DNA from: Agromyces ramosus
GTDB lineage: Bacteria; Actinomycetota; Actinomycetes; Actinomycetales; Microbacteriaceae
Reading direction: 5' to 3'
DNA length: 64,000 bases
NCBI RefSeq assembly: GCF_030817175.1
Contig: NZ_JAUSYY010000001.1
Coordinates: 744,001-808,000, forward strand
The notes under the pieces are model-generated. The model made no database searches. It worked only from the letters and a program-made list of their open reading frames with translations, and was not told the origin of the DNA. Shown here one piece after another: positions 11,909-22,999 of this stretch. The position numbers and the translations under genes are program-made. How positions within the stretch are numbered: the first letter of the stretch is position 1; each line of letters starts with the position of its first letter.

Positions 11909-13714
11909 CTACACCAGCGAGTCGCGCCACGCGGCGTGCAGCGCGGCGAACCGGCCCGTGCCGCCGATGAGCTCCGACGGCGAACCGTCTTCGACGATGC
12001 GGCCGTGCTCCATGACGAGTACCCGGTCGGCGATCGCGACCGTCGACAGGCGGTGCGCGATGATGACGGCCGTGCGGTCGGCGAGGAGCGTCGTGAGGCC
12101 CTCCTGCACGAGCCGCTCGCTCGGGATGTCGAGCGAGCTCGTCGCCTCGTCGAGGATCAGCACCGCGGGGTCGGCGAGGAACGCGCGTGCGAACGAGATG
12201 AGCTGCCGCTGCCCGGCGCTCACCCGGCCGCCGCGCTTGTTCACGTCGGTGTCGTACCCGTTCGGCAGGCTCTCGATGAACTCGTGCGCGCCCACGGCCT
12301 TCGCCGCCGCCACGATCTCCTCGAACGACGCGTCGGGCTTGCCGAGCGCGATGTTGTCGGCGACCGATCCCGAGAAGAGGTACGCCTCCTGCGTGACCAT
12401 GACGATCGCGCGCCGAAGGTCCTTCGGGTGCAGCGAGCGCAGGTCGACGCCGTCGAGCTCGACGACGCCGTCGCTCGGGTCGTAGAACCGCGCAAGCAGC
12501 TTCGCGAGCGTCGACTTGCCCGCGCCGGTCGACCCGACGAGCGCGATCGTCTGCCCGGCCGGCACGTCGAGGTCGAAGCGCGGGAGGATGACGCGATCCT
12601 TCGTGTACGCGAACTCGACGGCTTCGAAGCGCACATGCCCCGACGCCTTCCACAGGTCGACCGGATGCCGCGGCTCGGGCACGCTCGGCTCCTCCTCGAG
12701 CACGCCCGAGATCTTCTCGAGCGCCGAGGCGGCCGACTGGTACCCGTTGTAGAACATCGCCATGTCCTCGATCGGGTCGAAGAACCGCTTCGTGTAGAGG
12801 AGCGCCGACAGCAGCAGGCCGACCGCGAGCTCGCCGTCGACCGCGCGGAAGCCGCCGACGACGAGCACCGCCGCCACGCACGCGTTGCCGATGAGCAGCA
12901 GCCCGGGGTCGTAGATGCCGAAGAGCTGGATGACCTTCGCGTTGACGTCGCGGTAGTCCTCGACGAGCCCCGCGAACTCCTTCTCGTTGCGGCGCTCCTT
13001 GCGGAACGCCTGCACCGCCCGAATGCCCGTCATCGACTCGACGAAGTGCACGATGAGGTTCGCCGAGGCGACTCGGGAGCGACGGAACAGCTTCTGCGAG
13101 CGCACCTGGAACCAGCGCGTGAGCACCGTGAGCGGCACGAGCGCGACGACCAGCACGAGCGCCGACTTCCAGTCGACCAGGGCGAGCGCGACGGCCGTGA
13201 ACGTCATGTACAGCACCCCGCGCACGAGCTGGTTGATGCCCTCGTCGAGGAGCTCGCGGATCGCGTCGAGGTCGCTCGTCTGCCGGGAGATGATGCGCCC
13301 CGAGGTGTAGGACTCGTGGAACTCGAGCGAGAGCTTCTGCGTGTGCAGGAACACTCGGGTGCGCAGGTCGAGCAGCACGGCCTGGCTGATGCGGGCCGAC
13401 AGCTTGATGTACCACGCGATGAGGAACGCGCCGACGACCCCGGTGACGAGGTACGCCAATCCATAGAAGCCGATCGGGAACCAGTCGCCCTCGATCAGGG
13501 CAGGCAGGCCCTGGGTGATGCCGAAGCCGATCAGCGCCGGCCCCGCCACCTGCGCGGCCGTGGAGACGACGACGACCGCCATCGTCACCCAGAGTCGCGC
13601 TCGCACGGGCAGGAGCAGCGAGCCGAGCAGGCGCAGCGAGCGCTGCCGGATCTGCTTGGATTCGGACTTCGTGAACTCGTGGCGTTCCTCGCCTTCGACG
13701 CCCAAGACGCTCAT
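11909..13714 (-). CDS. Heterodimeric ABC exporter, subunit with catalytic Walker B
   Basis: Half-transporter of 601 residues: six-helix exporter membrane domain (about 35-330) and nucleotide-binding domain (about 365-590). Walker [10 protein letters not shown] (about 392), signature VSAGQRQ (about 496, degenerate compared with LSGGQ), Walker [12 protein letters not shown] with catalytic Glu, switch His in AHRLST. The stop of the upstream exporter gene overlaps this ATG (ATGA), so the two subunits are co-translated. Its intact Walker A/B with the LSGGQ of the partner would form the active ATP site. The pair is of the LmrCD/BmrCD/TM287-288 kind, which export drugs or lipids; the substrate here is unknown. 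Leader peptide and RNA elements precede the operon. Confidence 0.92.
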
Positions 13715-15696
13715 CGGGCCGCCTCCTCTCGTTCGCTGGGTTCGATTCCGGTCTTCGCCGCGGTCGCGGCATCCGACACGTCGGCCTCGACGGCCGTCGC
13801 GAGCTCGGCCGAGATGACCTCGGCCGCCTCGACCTCGGCTGCCTCGCGGTCGATGCGCCCTGATGCCTCCGCCGCCTCGCGGCGAACCTCGTCTTCGAGG
13901 CTCGAGATCACGAAGGCGTAGTGCTCGCTCTCGCGCAGGAGCTCGGAGTGGGTGCCGACCGCGGTGATGCGGCCGTCTTCGAGCAACGCGACACGGTCGG
14001 CGAGCATGACGGTCGACGGGCGGTGCGCCACGATGAGCGCGGTCGTCGAGTCGAGCACCCGGCGGAGCTCGGCCTCGACCCTCGCCTCGGTGGCGACGTC
14101 GAGCGCCGACAGCGGATCGTCGAGCACGAGCACCGCGGGCGCCGCCGCGACGGCCCGCGCGAGCGCGAGTCGCTGGCGCTGGCCGCCGGAGAGGCTCATG
14201 CCTTCTTCGCCGACCTTCGTGTCGACGCCGTCGGGCAGCTCGTAGGCGAAGCCCGCCTGTGCGATGGCGAGCGCCTCATCGAGCACGCGCTCGGCCTCGG
14301 CGCGCACGCCGGGCTCGTCACTCGCGAGTTCGGGCCGGCCGAGCAGCACGTTGTCGCGTACCGACGCGGAGAACAGCGTCGCATCCTCGAACGCCATGGC
14401 GATGTGGGTGCGGAGCTCCTCCCGGCTGAGCGCGCGGATGTCGACACCGTCGAGCGTGATCGAGCCGGCGGTGACGTCGTAGAGGCGGGTGGTGAGCGCC
14501 GTCATCGTCGTCTTGCCGGAGCCCGTGAGGCCGACGAGGGCCATCGTCTCGCCCGGCTCGAGCGTGAGGTCGATCCCGTCGAGCAGGTCGCCGAACCGGT
14601 CGGGCGAGTCCTGGTAGCGGAACCGCACCCCGGTGAAGGCAAGCTCGCCCCGGGGCCGCTCGATCGTCGCCGGGCGCTCGGGGTCGGTGATGACGTTCTC
14701 GCTGTCGAGGATGTCGAAGAACCGGTCGGTCGCGGTGCGCGCATCGACCGAGAACGCGAGCAGGAACCCGATCGACTCGATCGGCCAGGCGAGCACGCTC
14801 GCGGTCGCGAAGAAGGCGACGAGCTGACCGACGGTGAGCACGCCCTGCGCGGCGAGCACGACGCCGAACACGAGGCAGACGGCGAGGGCGACGGCCGGGA
14901 CCAGGAGGATCCACGCCCAGATGCTCGCCTCGAGGCGCGCCTTCTCCATCTCGGTGCTCCGCAGCGACTCAGCCTGCTTGCGGAAGGTCGACAGGGCGTG
15001 CTTGCCGCGCCCGAAGGCCTTCAGCACGCGGATGCCGTGCACCGACTCCTCGACGGCCGTCGCGAGGTCGCCGGCCTGGTCTTGGCTCAGCCGGGACACC
15101 TCGGAGTACCGGCCCTCGAAGCGGTAGCCGACGATCCAGAGCGGGATCGAGCAGAGGAGGAACACGATGCCGAGTACCCAGCTCATCGAGATGAGGATGC
15201 CGAGGCCGACGACGATCACGATGAGGTTCACGACGAGGAGCACGAGCCCGAACGAGAGCCAGCGGCGGATCAGGCCGAGGTCGCTCACGGCGCGTGAGAG
15301 CAGCTGCCCGCTCGGCCAGCGGTCGTGGAAGCTCACCGGCAGGTCCTGCAGCTTCGCGTAGAGGGCGTTGCGCATGCGCGCCTCGACGCGCGTGCCCGGG
15401 GTGAGCACGAACCAGCGCCGGAGCGCGACCATCGCTGCCTCGAGCACGCCGAGGGCGAACACGAGCGCCGCGAGCGGCCAGATCGCCGACGCGTCGCCAT
15501 CGGTGAGCGGGCCGTCGACGATCGCCTGCAGGACCTGCGGGATCGCGAGCGCGACGAGCTGCGACAGGAGCGCGGCCACCATGCCCGCGATGATCGCGGG
15601 AAGAGCTGGGCGAGCGTACTCGATGAGGCGTGCGAGCGCGCGAACGGTGCCGACGCGTGTGGTGGGAGCGTCCTGTGACACGGGGGTGGCGGACAA
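13711..15696 (-). CDS. Heterodimeric ABC exporter, subunit with degenerate ATP site
   Basis: Partner half-transporter, 661 residues from the TTG start at 15696. Exporter membrane domain (about 35-345) with six hydrophobic segments, then a nucleotide-binding domain: Walker [10 protein letters not shown] (about 388), canonical signature LSGGQRQ (about 502), Walker [13 protein letters not shown] in which Asp replaces the catalytic Glu, and switch His in AHRPST. An acidic/Ala-rich tail of about 70 residues follows. TTG 15696 is preceded by GGAAGGA at a suitable distance; GTG 15681 is an alternative. The frame stays open far upstream, but that part is antisense to the next operon. The Shine-Dalgarno sits in the palindrome CCTTCCGGAAGG, so translation may be controlled. 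Confidence 0.9.
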
Positions 15697-15704
15697 GCCG
15701 GGTT

Positions 15705-15758
15705 CCTTCCGGAAGGGCGCCGAACGGTCGCAGGGCGAGCCGGTTCGGTCGTGTTCGG
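15705..15758 (-). promoter_or_regulatory. Candidate regulatory mRNA structure ahead of the exporter genes
   Basis: In the 146-base leader between the small ORF and the exporter, the Shine-Dalgarno lies in the palindrome CCTTCCGGAAGG (15705-15716). Just upstream in the RNA is one GUUCGG (plus CCGAAC, 15720-15725) that can pair with either of two CCGAAC copies (plus GTTCGG at 15743-15748 and 15753-15758), giving mutually exclusive stems. A GCAGGC-GCA-GCCTGC hairpin lies directly after the small ORF. Pairings are seen by eye; folding was not computed. Confidence 0.45.
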
Positions 15759-15842
15759 ATCGAGTGGACGCGAAGAGAGGCGTCGGATGCGGGGCTACCG
15801 CAGAGAGCTGGGCAGGCTGCGCCTGCGCGGGACGGGGCGGAG

Positions 15843-15926
15843 TTAGCCCGTGAACCCCTGGGCGAGGAGCGACGGGCGGGCAGCGCCATCGACCGCGATC
15901 CAGCGGGCGTAGCTGTCTGTCTGCAT
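15843..15926 (-). CDS. 27-residue candidate leader peptide upstream of ABC exporter
   Basis: Short ORF of 27 codons plus TAA, beginning [14 protein letters not shown] and ending [11 protein letters not shown]. It has the best ribosome site in the region, AGGAGG seven bases or so before ATG 15926, and a plausible promoter 60-95 bases upstream. It is followed by 146 bases of structured leader and then the heterodimeric exporter. Leader peptides control several drug exporters by ribosome stalling or attenuation (BmrB ahead of bmrCD in Bacillus subtilis is the closest described arrangement). It contains one Trp and one Arg-Pro but no codon run typical of amino-acid attenuators, and no Cys. It might instead be a small functional protein or a peptide substrate of the exporter. 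Not recognised as a known family. Confidence 0.65.
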
Positions 15927-15992
15927 GGTGTCCTCCTGCGTCGTCTTTGGAACCCTCGAGGCCGCGGGATGTCTCACGTCGGCCAGCCCTAC

Positions 15993-16022
15993 AGACTACG
16001 GGTCTTTCGTGGTCGCGTGCAA
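15993..16022 (-). promoter_or_regulatory. Promoter of leader peptide-exporter operon
   Basis: Minus-strand TTGCAC (16017-16022), 18-base spacer and TAGTCT (15993-15998) fit a housekeeping-type promoter (4 of 6 matches each). The start would lie near 15986, giving a 60-base untranslated region before the 27-codon ORF. A divergent promoter for the plus-strand FtsX operon (possible -10 TAGGCT near 16038) is adjacent. Confidence 0.5.
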
Positions 16023-16134
16023 GACCACCCGCGACGATAGGCTGTGCGGATTCGCCGCCGCGCGGGCGTGCGTGCCGTGGCCCGTCGAGGCCCGCACCGC
16101 CGGCGCGAGCGACGCCGATCGATGAGGAGAGCGT

Positions 16135-19100
16135 GTGGGTTCGGCACGGACGTCGTTCGCCCGCGCTGCCGCGCGTGCGGGCGTCCTCGGCTCGATCGCC
16201 GCAGTGGTGTTCCTGCTCGCCGGGCTCGGCACGGCCGTCGTCGACTCGCTCGCGGGCGCCTCCGTGGGCGGTCTCCGCTCTGGGCTCGCCGCGGCTTCCG
16301 GCATCGACGGCGCGGCGAGGTGGCAGATCCGCCTCTCGAGCGATCCGGCCGCGCAGGCCGATGCGGCGGCATCCGTGCTCGACCGCATGATCGTGCCGCA
16401 CGGCGCGAGCTGGAGCCGGTCGGTCGAGACCGCACCTGTCGATGCCACAGGGCCGGCTGGCCCGTTCGGTGCGGTGCTGCTCGCCGATGACGGCGTTGCC
16501 GATCGCTCCCAGCTCGTGAGCGGCAGCTGGCCGACCGAGCCGCAGGCCGTCGCCGACGCCGACGGGGCCCTTCCTGCGACCCTGCACGCCGAGGCGGCCG
16601 CCGCCCTCGGGCTCGAGCCCGGCGACCTCGTCGAACTGGGCGGCGGCGGGCGCCTGCTGGTCGTCGGCACGTGGCTGCCGCTCGACCCCAACGAGCCCGT
16701 GTGGTTCGGCGAGCCCGCGGTCGCGACCGGCCTCGTCGACGACGGCGCCGGGCCGTTCCTCGTGCCCGAGGAGGCGCTCCTCGACGTGCCGGCCGCCACG
16801 GACGTGCGCTGGACCGCACTCGTCGACGCGGGCACGATGACCCCCGAGGTCGCCCGCACCCTGCGTGCCGCGCTGCCGAACGTGGAACCCGCGCTTCGCG
16901 CGCAGGAGGCCATCGGCGCCGACGGGCTCAGTGCGCTCGGCGCACTCGACGCGACGCTCGACCGTCTCCTCGCCGGCCTGGGCGCGGTGCGTGCGATCGC
17001 CCCGCTGCCCGTGCTCCTCCTCGCCTTCGCGGGCTTCGCCGCGCTCGCGCGCCTCGCCGCCCTCCTCGGCGCCTCGCGGCGAGGCGAGACGGTGCTCCTC
17101 CGCGCGCGCGGCGCCTCCGCGACCCGCCTCACCCGCGACGCCGCCGCCGAGGTGCTCGTGCTCGGCGTGCCGGCCGCGACATTGGGTGCTGCGGCCGGGC
17201 TCGCGCTGCTCGTGCTCCTCCGGCCCGGCGAGGCTCGCGACGTGGCGATCGCGTGGGTCGCGGCATCCGTCGCCGTCGTCGGCGCGCTCGTGCTCGTCGC
17301 CGGGCAGGCCTGGCGTGAGTCCAGGCGACCGGTCGTGCGCGGGTCGGGTGACGAGGTCGGGCGGATGCCCCGCACGCTCGTCGCGGGCGGCGTCGTGCTC
17401 GTCGCCGTGGTGGCGGCGGTGTCGCTGTGGCAGTTCCGCCTGTACGGCTCGCCGCTCGTGCCGACCGTGTCGGGCGCGCTCGAGATCGACCCGATCGCGG
17501 TGCTCGCGCCGGTGCTCGTGCTGCTCGCTCTCTCGCTCGCGGCCGTCGGGCTCTCGCGGCCCATCGACCTGCTGCTCGAGCGAGCGGCCGCCGCACGCCC
17601 GGGGCTGACCCCGGCGTTGCCGATGCGGCAGCTGGCACGCCGGGCGGCGCTCTACGCCTCCGCCTCCCTCGTGTCGATCCTCGCCGTCGCGGGCCTCACG
17701 CTCGCGGCGGCGTTCGCGGGCGCATGGCAGGACTTCGACCGTGCCGCGGCCGCCGTCACCACGGGCGGCGACGTGCAGGTCGCCTTCGCGGGCCGCGACG
17801 TCGTGCGCGGCGACGACCCCTTCGCGCTCGGCGACCCCTTCGCCGGCGTCGAGGGCATCACGGCGAGCGGGCCGGTGTACCGCGGCGAGATCCGCATCGG
17901 CTCCGACCGGTCGACGATCGTCGCGGCACCGGTCGCGCAACTGCCGGCGATCGCACCCGGCACGCACGCCGCGGCCGATGGCGGCGCCCTCGCCGAGTCG
18001 GCCGCCACCGCGGGCGTCGAGATTCCCGGCGGCGCCGTGGCGCTCGAGTACGTCGCGCGCGTCGCGGCTCCCCCGCGAACGCCCGGTACGGTCTCGATCT
18101 CGGCGTGGCTCCTCGGCGACGGCGGCGCGGCGACCCGCCTTCCCGCGGGCTCGTTCGCGGTCGAGAGCGGTGGCGGCACCGGCCGATTCGAGCTTCCGGA
18201 TGCCGCAGGGCTGCGCTTCCTCGGGCTCGAGGCGACGCTCACCGGGGCGCAGGGCGCCGACGACGTACGGGTCTCGCTCGGCGACGTCGCCCTCGACCCC
18301 GCCACCGACCCCGCTCCCGACCTCCAACTCGACGGTGAGCTCACGGTCTCGTCGGCCGACCCGAGCGACCGAGCGCCGCTCGCCGCCGGCGCCGACATCG
18401 GGCTGCCGGTGACGCTCGGCTCCGCGCTCGCGGCACGGATCCAGGCCCGGGTGGGCGACGAGTTCTCGTTCCGCATCCTCTCGGGCGGCGCGGAGGTCGA
18501 TGCCGTCGTGGCCGACATCGTCCCCGCCGTCCCGGCGGCGGGCGGCGACGGCGTCCTGGCGGACCTCGGTGCCCTCGAGCAGTATGCGTTCTCCGCCGAC
18601 GCCGGGGTGCCGCAGTACGGGCAGCGGTGGCTCGCGACATCCGACCCCGCCGTCGTGGCGGCGGAGCTCGAACGCGACCGGCAGGTCGCCATGACCGTCA
18701 CCACGCGACAGCTCGCGTCGTCGGCGATGCTCATCGGCCCCGCGGTGACGGCGCTCTGGGCGGGCGCGGTCGGTGCGCTCGTGTTCGCGCTCATCGCGAT
18801 CATCGCCCTGGTCGCCGCGCTCCGCACCGCACGGCTCGGCGAGGTCAGCGTGCTGCGCGTGCTCGGCATGCCCGCCCGAGCACAGGCGCGCGCCCGGCTC
18901 GCCGAGCTCTCGGTCACCCTCGGCACCGCGGTCGTGGTCGGCGTGGCCGTGGGCCTCCTGACCGCCCTCGTGACGGCGCGCGAGCTCGCACGCGCGGCGG
19001 TCGCCGGCGCACCCGAGGTGCTCCCAGTGGGCTTCGCGGTCGACTGGCTGCCGTGGGCGACCGCCCTCGTGGCCTTCCTCGTGGCCGCGGTGACGATCGG

Positions 19101-19167
19101 GGCGGTGGCCTCGAACGCCGTGCGCCGCGACGCCTCCCGACCCGCGAGGCCGGAGGAGGAGCGATGA
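16135..19167 (+). CDS. Large FtsX-like ABC permease (first of two)
   Basis: Membrane subunit of a MacB/LolE-type ABC system, 1010 residues. The N-terminal segment at about 15-38 anchors the protein, a large extracytoplasmic domain follows, then two FtsX blocks: about 280-400 ([25 protein letters not shown]-type loop with [10 protein letters not shown]) and the C-terminal block at about 870-1000 ([20 protein letters not shown], then [20 protein letters not shown]). Such proteins couple ATP use in the cytoplasm to movement of an outer domain. GTG 16135 follows GAGGAG. It is the first gene of a four-gene operon with ATGA overlaps. Cargo unknown; no binding protein or peptidase partner is present. 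Confidence 0.88.
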
Positions 19168-21905
19168 GCGCCCGCCACCACTCCCGTCTCTCGACGGCCG
19201 GACTGCTCCGGCGCCAGTTCTTGGCCGGTCCGGGCGCCTCGATCATGCTCGCCCTGCTCGTGCTCGTCGGCGCACTGCTCGCCACCGCGGTGCCGCGCGC
19301 CGTCGCCGCGATGCACACGGCGGCGCTCGGCGTCGCCCTCGGCGACTTGCCCGCGAACGAGCTCGACCTCACGAGTGCCCTGCGGGCGACCCCCGAGATC
19401 GCCGCGTCGAACGGTGCCACGACCTTGCCTGACGACGTCGAGGCGGTCTGGGGCCATCAGGAGCAGCGCCTGCTCGACATCCGAGCCGGCATGCCGCAGC
19501 CGCTCCGCGGCATCACGGAGGCGCCGCTGTCGGTGCTCACGACCGGGCCGGCGCAGGTGTTCGTGCCCGGTGCCGCGCCGAGCGGGCCGGTGTTCCGGGT
19601 CCTGCCCGGGTTCGACCCGCGGCTGCGCGAGCACGTGACGCTGACGAGCGGCGAGTGGCCCGCCCCGGTCGACGAAGCCGTGCCCGGGGCCGCCGCCGTC
19701 GAGGTCGTGTTCACCGACGCGATCGCCGAGGGCATGCAGTGGGAGCTCGGCGAGGAACGGCGCCTGCCGGCAGGCAGCGGCGACCAGCAGGTGCGCCTCG
19801 TCGGCACCGTGTCGGCGGTCGATCCCGACGACGGCTTCTGGACCCACCTGCCGCTCGCGCTCGAACCGTCGATCCTCGGCATCGACCCGCCCGTGATCAC
19901 CGGTGTCGCCTTCGTCGACCCCGCCTCATGGCCGGCCTTCGTCGACGTACGCATGCCCGCGACCATGCACGCCTGGTTCCCGGCCGTCGGCGACCGCATC
20001 GAGGCCGACGAGACCCGCACCCTCATCGGGCAGCTCGACGAGTTCACCTCCCAGGTGCAGTCGCTCGGCGATGGCCCGCAGCAGTTCTCCGACCTGACGG
20101 TCGGCGAGGTGAGCTTCTCGAGCGGCCTCCGCGACGCGCTCATCGAGGCCGCCGCCGCCGCGAGCGCGAGCGATGCCGTGCTCGCGACGATCGCGTCGGG
20201 GCCGATCGGGGTCATGGTCGCCGTGCTCGTGCTCGGCGCCCGCGTCGTGTTCGAGCGGCGACGCACGGGCCTCGAGCTCGCCGCGGCCCGCGGCGCGTCA
20301 CCGGGCCAGCTCAGGGGCATCCTCGCCATCGAAGGCCTCGCGATCGGCGTTCCGGCTGCGCTCGTCGGCGGCATCGCGGGCACGGTCGCAATCGCCGCCG
20401 ACGCGGGCTGGGCCGGATGGGTCATCGCCGCCGTGTTCGCCCTCACGCCCGTGGTGCTGCTCGTCTCCCGGGCTCCGTCGCTGAGTCCGCTGCGGCGCGC
20501 CCGCGCCGACCTCGGCACAGCGGATCGCGACCGTTGGCGTTGGATCGTCGAGGCCCTCGTCGTCGTGCTCGCGACGGTCGCACTCGTGCTGCTCCTTCGT
20601 CGTGGGCTCGCGACCTCGGCCGTCGACACGGGCGTCGACCCGCTGCTGGCCGCGGTGCCGTTGCTGCTGTCGCTCGTCGCGTGCGTCGTGGTGCTCCGCC
20701 TCTACCCCGTGCCCCTCGCGGGATTCGTGCGCCGCGCCTCGCGGCGCCCGTCGCTCGTGCCGTTCCTCGGCTCCGCGCGGTCGCTCCGCGATCCCTCGGC
20801 GGGCCTCGTGCCCGTGCTCGCGGTCGTCGTCGGCGTCTCGGTCGCGGTCTTCTCCGCCGTGCTGCTCGGCACGGTGCAGTCGGGCGTCGAGCGCACCGCC
20901 GACGCCGAGGTCGGGGCGGATGCCTCGGTGTCGGGCACCCCGTTCACGCTCGAGCAGCAGGCGGCCTTCGCCGACGTGCCGGGCGTCGCCGCGACGGCGC
21001 CGGTCTACGCGACCACCGCGATCCGGGTGAGCATCGACGGGCGCAACCGCTCGACGACCCTCATCGTCGTCGATGTCGCCGAGATGCGGGCGGTGCAGGC
21101 GGGCCGCGTCGACGCGACGCCCCTGCCCGAAGTGCTCGCCGAGAGCGGCGACGACGGCGTCCCGGTGGTGCTCTCACGCGTCATCGCCTCGTCGATCGAG
21201 GGCGCCGACGAGGTCGAGATCGACGGCGAGGCGTTCGAGGCGATCGGCGTCGTCGACGGCTCGACCGCCTACCTCGACCGGGCCAGCTGGGTGCTCATGG
21301 ACCGAGCCAACGCCGAGCCGTTCACCGATACCCTCGTGCCGCGCGTCGTGCTCGTGCGGTTCGAGCCCGGGGCCGATGTCGCTCGGGTCACCGCCGAGCT
21401 CGCCGAGATCGCCGGACCCGATGCGCACGTCACGACGCCAGACGATCTCCGCACCGAGCTCCACGCCAGGCCCACGACCCGCGGACTCGTCGTCGCACTC
21501 ATCGCCGCGATCGTGCTCGCGAGCCTGCTCACCGCCCTCGCGATCGTGCTCACCCTCGTCGTCGGCAGGCCCGCGCGCGAACGCCTGCTGCCGCTGCTCA
21601 CGACGCTCGGACTCCCCCGTCGCGGCGAGCGTGCGCTCGTCGCCTGGGAGATCGGTCCGGTCGCCGTCGTCGCGCTCGTCGCGGGCGCCGTGCTCGGCGT
21701 GCTGCTGCCGCTCGTCGTGCTCCAGGGCGTCGACCTCCGCGCGTTCACGAGCGGTGACCACCAACCCGTGGTCACCTACGAGCCGTGGCTCATCGCCGCG
21801 GTGCTCGCCGGCTCGGTGCTCGTGACGGTCGTCGCGGCCGCCGCGGCCTCTCGCGTCGACGGTCGCGTGAACGTCGCGCGCGCGATGCGCAAGGAGGAGG
21901 AATGA
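19164..21905 (+). CDS. Large FtsX-like ABC permease (second of two)
   Basis: Second permease of the operon, 913 residues. N-terminal membrane segment at about 17-40 ([18 protein letters not shown]), large external domain (about 45-345), then FtsX membrane blocks with the typical loop [20 protein letters not shown] near 360-380 and a C-terminal block [20 protein letters not shown] with hydrophobic segments on both sides. The ATG at 19164 overlaps the preceding stop by four bases and follows GGAGGAG. Together with the first permease it could form a heterodimer served by the two ATPases downstream. Domain order matches the first gene, suggesting an old duplication. Confidence 0.88.
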
Positions 21906-22999
21906 TGAACCCCATGGCCAACGCCTCGAGTGAACCGCACATCCTCTGCGCCGACCTCGTGCGGATCTTCACCGCCGACGGCGTCGAGGTGCAGGCCCTG
22001 CAGGGGTTGAACCTCCGCGTCGACCCCGGTGAGATGGTCGCCGTCGTCGGCGCCTCCGGCTCGGGCAAGTCGACGCTGCTCACGATCCTGTCGGGGCTCG
22101 ACACCGCCACGGCCGGTGTCGCCCGCGTCGCGGGGCACGACCTGCTCGCGATGGGCTCCCGTGAGCGCGTCGCCTACCAGCGCCACACCGTCGGCTTCGT
22201 CTGGCAGCAGACGTCGCGCAACCTCCTCCCCTACCTCACGGCGGCCGAGAACGTCGCCCTCGCGATGAACGTCGCGGGCACGCTCCGCGGTGCGGCGCGC
22301 GCGGCACGAGTCGATGAGCTCCTCGAGCTGCTCGACGTGGGAGCCGAGCGCGACCGCCGTCCGGGTGAGCTCTCGGGCGGCCAGCAGCAGCGAGTGGCCA
22401 TCGCCGTCGCCCTCGCGAACTCGCCGCTCGTGCTGCTGGCCGACGAGCCCACGGGCGAGCTCGACGAGGCGACCTCCGTCGCCGTGCTCGAGGCGATGCG
22501 CGGCGTCAACGACGAGCTCGGGGTGACCACCCTCATCGTCACGCACGACCCGGCCGTCTCGGGCCACGTGCGCCGAACCGTGCAGATCCGCGACGGTCGC
22601 ACGTCCACCGAGGTGCTGCGCTCCACCCGCGTCGACGAGCACGGTGAAGAGCAGCACGTGGCCGAGGAGTTCGCGGTGCTCGATCGCGTCGGCCGGCTGC
22701 AGCTGCCGCACGACTTCATGCAGACCCTCGAGCTGCGTGACCGCGTGCGGCTCGCGCTCGAGCCCGATCACGTCGGCGTGTGGCCGGGCCACGAAGGGCG
22801 AGCGGATGTCCCGGCGGCCACGGTCCCGCCGGCTCCCGCGGCTCCCACGGCGTCTCCCGACGCACCCGCCGCGCCGTCGCCGGCCCGCCCGGCTGCCGCC
22901 GCCGCGCCGCGCCGGCCGCGTCACGTCGCCGAACCGGAAGCCGCAGCATCCGGCCCCGCGGCATCCGGCCCCGCACCCGAGCAGGAGGAGGAACGATGA
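21902..22999 (+). CDS. ABC transporter ATPase (MacB/LolD type) with Pro/Ala-rich tail
   Basis: ATP-binding subunit of the FtsX operon, 365 residues. The ATPase core occupies about 10-235: Walker A GASGSGKST, Q-loop region VGFVWQQTSRNLLPYLT, signature LSGGQQQR, Walker B VLLADEPTGELD and switch His in VTHD. After it come about 130 extra residues, the last 75 rich in Pro and Ala (PAAPTASPDAPAAPSP and similar) ending in EQEEER, so probably disordered. The start ATG 21902 overlaps the preceding stop; a second ATG follows directly at 21905. Such an extension is not typical of LolD-type ATPases and may interact with a partner. Confidence 0.9.
   Translation: MMNPMANASSEPHILCADLVRIFTADGVEVQALQGLNLRVDPGEMVAVVGASGSGKSTLLTILSGLDTATAGVARVAGHDLLAMGSRERVAYQRHTVGFVWQQTSRNLLPYLTAAENVALAMNVAGTLRGAARAARVDELLELLDVGAERDRRPGELSGGQQQRVAIAVALANSPLVLLADEPTGELDEATSVAVLEAMRGVNDELGVTTLIVTHDPAVSGHVRRTVQIRDGRTSTEVLRSTRVDEHGEEQHVAEEFAVLDRVGRLQLPHDFMQTLELRDRVRLALEPDHVGVWPGHEGRADVPAATVPPAPAAPTASPDAPAAPSPARPAAAAAPRRPRHVAEPEAAASGPAASGPAPEQEEER

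Follow-up and report, generated by a model that had tools for sequence, protein, structure and literature searches.

The question raised by this locus is what a short open reading frame with a strong ribosome site does ahead of the genes of a heterodimeric ABC exporter. The locus lies on the minus strand of a 64,000-nucleotide stretch of Agromyces ramosus DNA, hereafter the window. As translated in the ORF list, the leader ORF (uORF; 15843..15926, minus strand) encodes 27 residues followed by TAA, and a short ORF is kept in this place across Microbacteriaceae loci. AGGAGG at 15932..15937 (minus strand) stands five bases before its ATG, and exactly 146 bases separate the TAA (15843) from the TTG start of the exporter (15696). 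An earlier note on this DNA had reported a 28-codon ORF with AGGAGG 146 bases ahead of the exporter, and these coordinates were confirmed. Strong ribosome sites at a spacing of 4-9 bases occur 14 times in the 64-kb window, against 1.5 expected from shuffling, and most of the 14 are apparently at gene starts. The leader peptide has no Pfam or NCBIfam match. No Rfam family reached its gathering score anywhere in the window, and none appeared at E up to 1 in 15650-16060.

The uORF had also been credited with a promoter of its own. This agrees with a promoter-like pair that was read by eye on the minus strand, a -35-like TTGCAC (16017..16022) and, 18 bases after it, a -10-like TAGTCT (15993..15998), both with counterparts in aligned leaders across the genus. 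The -10 variants in 40 aligned Agromyces leaders include TAGTCT, TAGGCT, TATTCT and TAGCCT. The pattern TTG[CT]../TA...T with 17-19 bases between its halves is present in 51/54 Agromyces leaders, a count that has no chance control, and a looser promoter pattern is present in 92/109 leaders. A generic sigma-70 scan of 15600-16140 returned no site.

The exporter is encoded by two overlapping genes for proteins with an ABC membrane part and an ATPase part, and is thus heterodimeric. Subunit 1 (13711..15696, minus strand) starts with TTG, and subunit 2 (11909..13714, minus strand) with an ATG that overlaps the TGA of subunit 1. Both match Pfam PF00664 and PF00005; in the domain, homologue and structure searches the query for subunit 1 had one extra codon upstream of the TTG. 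The Walker B motifs, VLVLDDP (subunit 1) and VLILDEA (subunit 2), imply one site without the usual catalytic Glu, and judged by them the pump is of the degenerate-site heterodimer kind. Among the best 80 of 263 named loci, 76 have subunit 2 after subunit 1. The top-scoring solved relatives by sequence are long eukaryotic P-glycoprotein-type chains, and the bacterial ones include TM_0288, 6raf, 8t1p/7m33 (YheI/YheH) and 8wcw/9iqe. Both subunits are matched by 8wcw, which we take to be the mycobacterial MsRv1273c/72c pump. PADLOC matches of both subunits were partial, mostly over the ATP-binding end, and were given no weight.

When 199 family genomes were searched with the peptide, the sole match was its own genome, and the exporter was therefore used as the anchor for collecting loci. 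These were the best 80 of 263 named loci, 20 from the genus, more from the family, and 40 at order level, three of which fall within the family. Under a strict filter (GGAGG, 3-9 bases, ATG, 12-60 residues, at most 450 bases upstream), a uORF was found in 136/153 Microbacteriaceae exporter loci, as against 1.2% of dinucleotide shuffles, 3/153 reverse complements of the same upstream DNA and 0/37 loci outside the family; L074, L096 and L107, with too little upstream DNA, were left out of the 153. The loci are best matches that include some species twice, so the counts cannot be treated as independent, and kinship is ignored in all tests given here. Of the 17 family loci that fail the strict filter, three (L070, L092 and L097) have a short ORF under a looser one. 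As a background from the same genome (20 stretches of 20 kb), a strict uORF precedes 3/164 genes whose upstream gap measures 120 nt or more; by a crude gene caller, the gaps of these three are 795, 957 and 1842 nt long. The earlier note had made its proposal depend on the ORF and its ribosome site being kept in relatives that have the exporter, and kept they are.

The 137 leaders found include 110 distinct ones, and L107 was dropped for its short flank from all counts that are given over 109. AGGAGG precedes the uORF in 96/109 leaders, a set selected for GGAGG, and precedes the exporter start in 0/109. Within the genus, the exporter is present in 58/60 genomes at E up to 1e-100, and the 334-base leader is matched at the DNA level in 48/60. 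Most of the better DNA matches run from the promoter through the uORF to the first hairpin, and a smaller number extend to the exporter. From these comparisons, the existence of a conserved leader ahead of the exporter is well supported.

The uORFs also have the composition of translated sequence. Their GC content by codon position is 0.695/0.659/0.809, whereas the stretch directly downstream is flat (0.745/0.729/0.744); for these values, as for the strict-filter counts above and the length, stop-codon, composition, folding, hairpin and last-130-base C/G counts below, the aligned exporter start was used, which is one base, and at some loci tens of bases, off. The first codons are rich in A (38% in codons 2-5, 10% afterwards). 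A conserved ORF with coding-like composition and a promoter-like pair before a heterodimeric exporter therefore makes leader-type control likely. As a side observation, ACA is the commonest codon at positions 2-4 (80/327), despite ending in A in a GC-rich genome, and it occupies codon 3 in 31/32 Agromyces leaders.

The product of the ORF is another matter. Mean pN/pS is 1.25 over 32 aligned Agromyces leaders, selected by peptides that start MQTD, MQTE, MTTD or MQTH, which biases the set towards similar N-termini, whereas the readable exporters of those loci give 0.38. It follows that the reading of the ORF is kept and not its product, and that one part of what the earlier note had expected, selection on the amino acids, did not hold. 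In the same 32 leaders variation is lowest at third codon positions (entropy 0.57 vs 0.78 and 0.76), which may partly reflect GC bias. MQT, AR and a final G recur in their peptides. Lengths range from 16 to 55 residues in the 109 leaders, with 98 of them within 21-36; the 55-residue ORF of L100 and the 16-residue ORF are probably non-homologous to the others. Judged from these patterns, the exact peptide seems unimportant and translation important.

The same data bear on readings in which the peptide itself would act. Small-peptide genes do occur beside exporters, and the product could be an exported peptide, a regulator in trans or a small membrane partner of the exporter. We consider a functional peptide of this sort very improbable, in view of the pN/pS, the spread of lengths and the empty Pfam and NCBIfam searches. 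A trans-acting peptide was rejected on the lack of amino-acid selection. Conserved stalling residues of the TnaC or ErmCL type were not found in the 32 Agromyces leaders or, by eye, across genera. An amino-acid attenuator was likewise rejected, because the peptide is not under selection and the 109 leaders share no codon run. Runs of at least three codons for one amino acid are scattered (Ala 14, Thr 8, Arg 4, Val 3 and Pro 1 of 109), and the A. ramosus peptide has none, just as the earlier note had observed. The Trp to which that note drew attention is exceptional, being present in just 4/109 peptides, and no role for it is supported.

Composition is nevertheless distinctive. Ala makes up 22% of uORF residues, compared to 13.8% in proteins of the same genome and 14.8% at their N-termini, and Thr makes up 11-12%, compared to 5.8% and 6.8%; Asp+Glu, Leu and Trp are low. 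Ala, Ser and Thr together average 40% (lowest 24%) vs 25% in own-genome proteins and 29% at N-termini; for these Ala/Ser/Thr values, and for no others, L100 was dropped. The 40% level is reached by 60/109 uORFs but by 7.2% of 26-residue stretches of own-genome proteins. The A. ramosus peptide, at 34.6%, is below the uORF mean, and when the uORFs are read in one of the wrong frames the value is 34.8%, largely owing to Ser.

The place where translation ends appears to be constrained as well. The uORFs stop at TAG in 88, TAA in 14 and TGA in 7 of 109 cases, TGA being used in 2/54 Agromyces leaders, 2/13 of the genus labelled g85 and 3/42 elsewhere. By contrast, among 280 genes delimited with a crude gene caller in 400 kb of the own genome, 192 stop at TGA, 73 at TAG and 15 at TAA. 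The contrast is weaker against genes elsewhere in the flanks of these loci (TGA 16/51). The exporter's own stop, TGA in 97/98, was discarded as a control in favour of the own-genome genes, because 94/97 overlap a start-like codon at the start of subunit 2. The short length of the uORFs together with their non-TGA stops suggests that the position at which translation ends matters.

Past the stop, a hairpin (GCAGGC-GCA-GCCTGC; 15812..15826, minus strand) begins 16 bases downstream in A. ramosus and has counterparts in Agromyces leaders. Its general form, GC[A/C]GG...CC[T/G]GC, is present in 44/54 Agromyces leaders (1.9% of shuffles) at a median of 16 bases after the stop, and is well kept within Agromyces only. 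One of its pairs shows a double change, A-T to C-G, in 7 of 32 aligned leaders; for the pair counts, 32 Agromyces-type leaders were hand-picked from a list of 44. Across all 109 leaders, the 60 bases that follow the stop fold little more than expected (median z -0.40).

A hairpin in this position brings to mind ribosome-mediated attenuation with an intrinsic terminator and an antiterminator, of the BmrB/BmrCD or whiB7/wblC type, and the earlier note had proposed a counterpart of BmrB. The layout is shared, with a short ORF followed by genes for a heterodimeric multidrug-type exporter and with short, GC-rich hairpins past the uORF stop, and in 20 leaders the minimum free energy of the gap is slightly below that of shuffles (mean z -1.27). 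However, a terminator-like site, that is, a hairpin with a T-run, was found in the uORF end and gap of just 1/109 leaders, and a search of 15600-16140 for an intrinsic terminator found none. Codons 16-18 could form a stem with the stop codon, but most pairs of this candidate are broken in about a quarter of the 32 leaders, which makes it unreliable. The leader is set apart from the BmrB type because this terminator was looked for and is nearly always missing. We regard attenuation of that type as unlikely here; of the BmrB proposal, the conserved ORF ahead of a heterodimeric exporter and the likelihood of leader-type control stand, and a likeness in mechanism is not supported.

Control could instead be exerted at the exporter's own ribosome site, if the leader hid that site and a stalled ribosome freed it, as in translation attenuation of the ermC or toiL type. 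In A. ramosus this site (GGAAGGA; 15704..15710, minus strand) is within a palindrome, CCTTCCGGAAGG (15716-15705), and the start codon is TTG, which would suit such a scheme. Palindromes of at least 8 bases cover the site in 12/53 Agromyces leaders, compared to 1/53 control stretches. On the other hand, in structure predictions for 40 of 107 leaders the probability that the site is unpaired is 0.49, vs 0.47 with shuffled upstream sequence, and is lower than in shuffles in 16/40, or in 14/40 when the uORF is included. Pairing between the uORF and the exporter site, with starts roughly placed, exceeds that of shuffles in 13/30, which is no excess. Taken together, we think it rather improbable that the leader works in this way. 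Exporter starts could be assigned for 107/109 leaders, and the ribosome-site, palindrome and stop-to-start C/G counts rest on these assignments. Their ribosome-site matches are 0-6 bases long, and none has GGAGG. The start codon is TTG or GTG in 55/107 and ATG in 52/107, so a weak start codon is not general. The palindrome varies in sequence (CTTCCGGAAG, CCTCTCGAGAGG and others in Agromyces relatives), and could be an operator or a small hairpin.

What the gap between uORF and exporter does have is an unusual composition. In A. ramosus its 146 bases (15697..15842, minus strand) are C-rich and G-poor, and in this respect rut-like (A19 C68 G38 T21). Measured from the uORF stop to the assigned exporter start, the gaps have a median length of 149 bases and a median C/G of 1.66, and C exceeds G in 106/106 of them. 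Among 164 upstream gaps of at least 120 nt in the own genome, C/G of at least 1.77 occurs once, in what looks like a mis-set start inside a beta-galactosidase gene. Over the last 130 bases before the exporter, the family median is 1.69, vs 1.18 in 37 loci outside the family. The best rut-like 78-nt window of the A. ramosus leader has a C/G of 2.18, which 0.6% of background stretches equal or exceed. Among 14 family loci that lack a strict uORF the ratio varies (0.80-1.82, with 6 of them at 1.4-1.8), and the C-rich gap and the uORF are therefore imperfectly linked. A second ORF of at least 8 codons behind AGGAG, GGAGG or AAGGAG was found in the gap of 0/109 leaders. As to composition, then, the RNA after the uORF is what Rho would be expected to bind, being C-rich and G-poor and free of further strong ribosome sites, and the own genome carries a Rho gene. 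The gap thereby points to a Rho-type ending, which the earlier note had left out of account. The C-rich gap could also serve another end, for instance keeping the exporter start open.

It must also be considered that the uORF senses nothing and is a constitutive helper, protecting or stabilizing the mRNA, keeping transcription and translation coupled or loading ribosomes. The missing conserved peptide and shared sensor codon run would fit such a role, and so would the vegetative-type promoter and the A-rich first codons, which favour initiation. We nevertheless find it doubtful, although worth bearing in mind. About 150 C-rich bases with no further strong ribosome site would be a poor design for coupling or reinitiation, and the short length and non-TGA stop, by suggesting that the position of the translation end matters, speak against it.

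The uORF is kept, its peptide is free to change, and the C-rich gap contains neither a strong ribosome site nor, as a rule, a terminator-like site. From these three observations together we infer that the leader is translated and that its translation governs the exporter through attenuation, which is probably Rho-dependent, a reading that we prefer tentatively and with slightly less than even confidence. The uORF would probably sense translation and switch the pump accordingly. Its translation in the cell, the action of Rho on the transcript, the nature of the signal and the direction of the response are what we infer from the DNA.

In such a Rho-dependent attenuator, the vegetative-type promoter would give rise to a leader transcript on whose uORF ribosomes would load very well, thanks to AGGAGG, ATG and A-rich first codons, and from which they would exit at a stop that is rarely TGA. 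The C-rich gap of about 150 bases would then be the Rho loading region, and transcription would usually stop short of the exporter gene or soon after entering it; the gene's own start would be weaker than that of the uORF. Ribosomes slowed or stalled on the uORF would change Rho loading, and the exporter would be made or not made as a result. A ribosome held at the uORF stop would, given its footprint size, shield the gap just as far as roughly the hairpin. Were ribosomes to stall near the start of the uORF, RNA polymerase would be left uncoupled and Rho could be favoured instead of blocked, so that the control might run in either direction.

The enrichment in Ala and Thr hints that drugs acting on the peptidyl transferase centre, for example, could be a signal, as Ala/Thr-rich peptides would offer many of their preferred Ala/Ser/Thr contexts. 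In excerpted accounts, chloramphenicol (PMC12121999), and chloramphenicol and linezolid alike (PMC8987054), stall ribosomes most efficiently after Ala, with Ser and Thr less effective. One might go further and imagine that the whole family has a sensor informed by amino-acid composition and by the translation end rather than by peptide sequence. It would have stall sites for phenicols and oxazolidinones, which prefer Ala, Ser or Thr in the penultimate position, and a stop, rarely TGA, that would sharply divide the RNA covered by ribosomes from the Rho loading region on which exporter transcription would depend, but so complete a scheme strikes us as unlikely.

Several known systems share parts of this arrangement. 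In B. subtilis, the excerpted description of BmrB/bmrCD likewise has a short ORF directly before a heterodimeric multidrug ABC exporter, with a promoter upstream (PMC4191407). There, according to the same excerpt, control depends on an intrinsic terminator inside bmrB and on alternative stem-loops, whereas in our leaders a terminator-like site is the exception and the kept Agromyces hairpin comes after the stop (PMC4191407). The whiB7/wblC leaders are actinobacterial uORFs that control an antibiotic-response gene by premature termination; in the text excerpted, however, the terminator is Rho-independent and the target is a transcription factor rather than an exporter (PMC11550727). As to the pump, the excerpted description of mycobacterial MsRv1273c/72c is also of a heterodimeric exporter with one degenerate site (PMC12038006).

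Rho has been linked to uORFs in other leaders. Rho-dependent premature termination is described for Mycobacterium tuberculosis leaders with translated uORFs, in a partial account (PMC12810186, citing D'Halluin 2023). These resemble our case in being actinobacterial and in having a uORF and a pyrimidine-rich region of the Rho-binding type, and differ from it, as far as that account goes, in having an Mbox riboswitch and a conserved uORF2 peptide (PMC12810186), whereas here there is no Rfam match and the peptide is divergent. In E. coli, the uORF toiL of topAI-yjhQ is excerpted as sensing, with Rho, several antibiotic classes (PMC12121999). It has in common with our proposal a uORF, Rho-dependent termination and many possible stall positions (PMC12121999). 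In contrast to the leaders studied here, pairing with the topAI ribosome site extends along toiL, and toiL is described in that excerpt as lacking Ala, Ser and Thr codons (PMC12121999); we saw no excess of such pairing, and our uORFs are rich in these codons.

Among the matches listed in the open-licence literature that was searched, there was no description of this leader. We have filed a uORF ahead of a multidrug-type pump as a known kind of arrangement, and the Microbacteriaceae leader as one not of the BmrB type. What is conserved is a layout and not a sequence, namely a strong ribosome site, short length, richness in Ala and Thr, rare TGA, a hairpin and a C-rich gap, and ordinary homology searches, such as the one with the peptide, miss it. 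If a Rho-type sensor coded by composition proved true, these actinobacteria would control a pump with neither a conserved arrest peptide nor an intrinsic terminator. This reading of the leader is directly testable with one reporter.

Some features of the surroundings may also be recorded. In one Agromyces genome (G233 contig 1, 1629547-1631369), subunit 1 is in two overlapping pieces, and a relative of 54% identity is located elsewhere. Divergently from the A. ramosus exporter, on the plus strand, there are large membrane-protein ORFs followed by an ATP-binding ORF (16135-19167, 18627-21905 and 21785-22999, from their first listed starts), which by eye look like MacB/FtsX-type ABC proteins. 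In several genera (L048, L075 and L098, as well as L095), the leader is preceded in the same orientation by a reading frame with the ending EKLEGCVTCLSVRVR or a similar one, some 500-600 bases from the exporter; this ending resembles that of dimethylarginine dimethylaminohydrolase.
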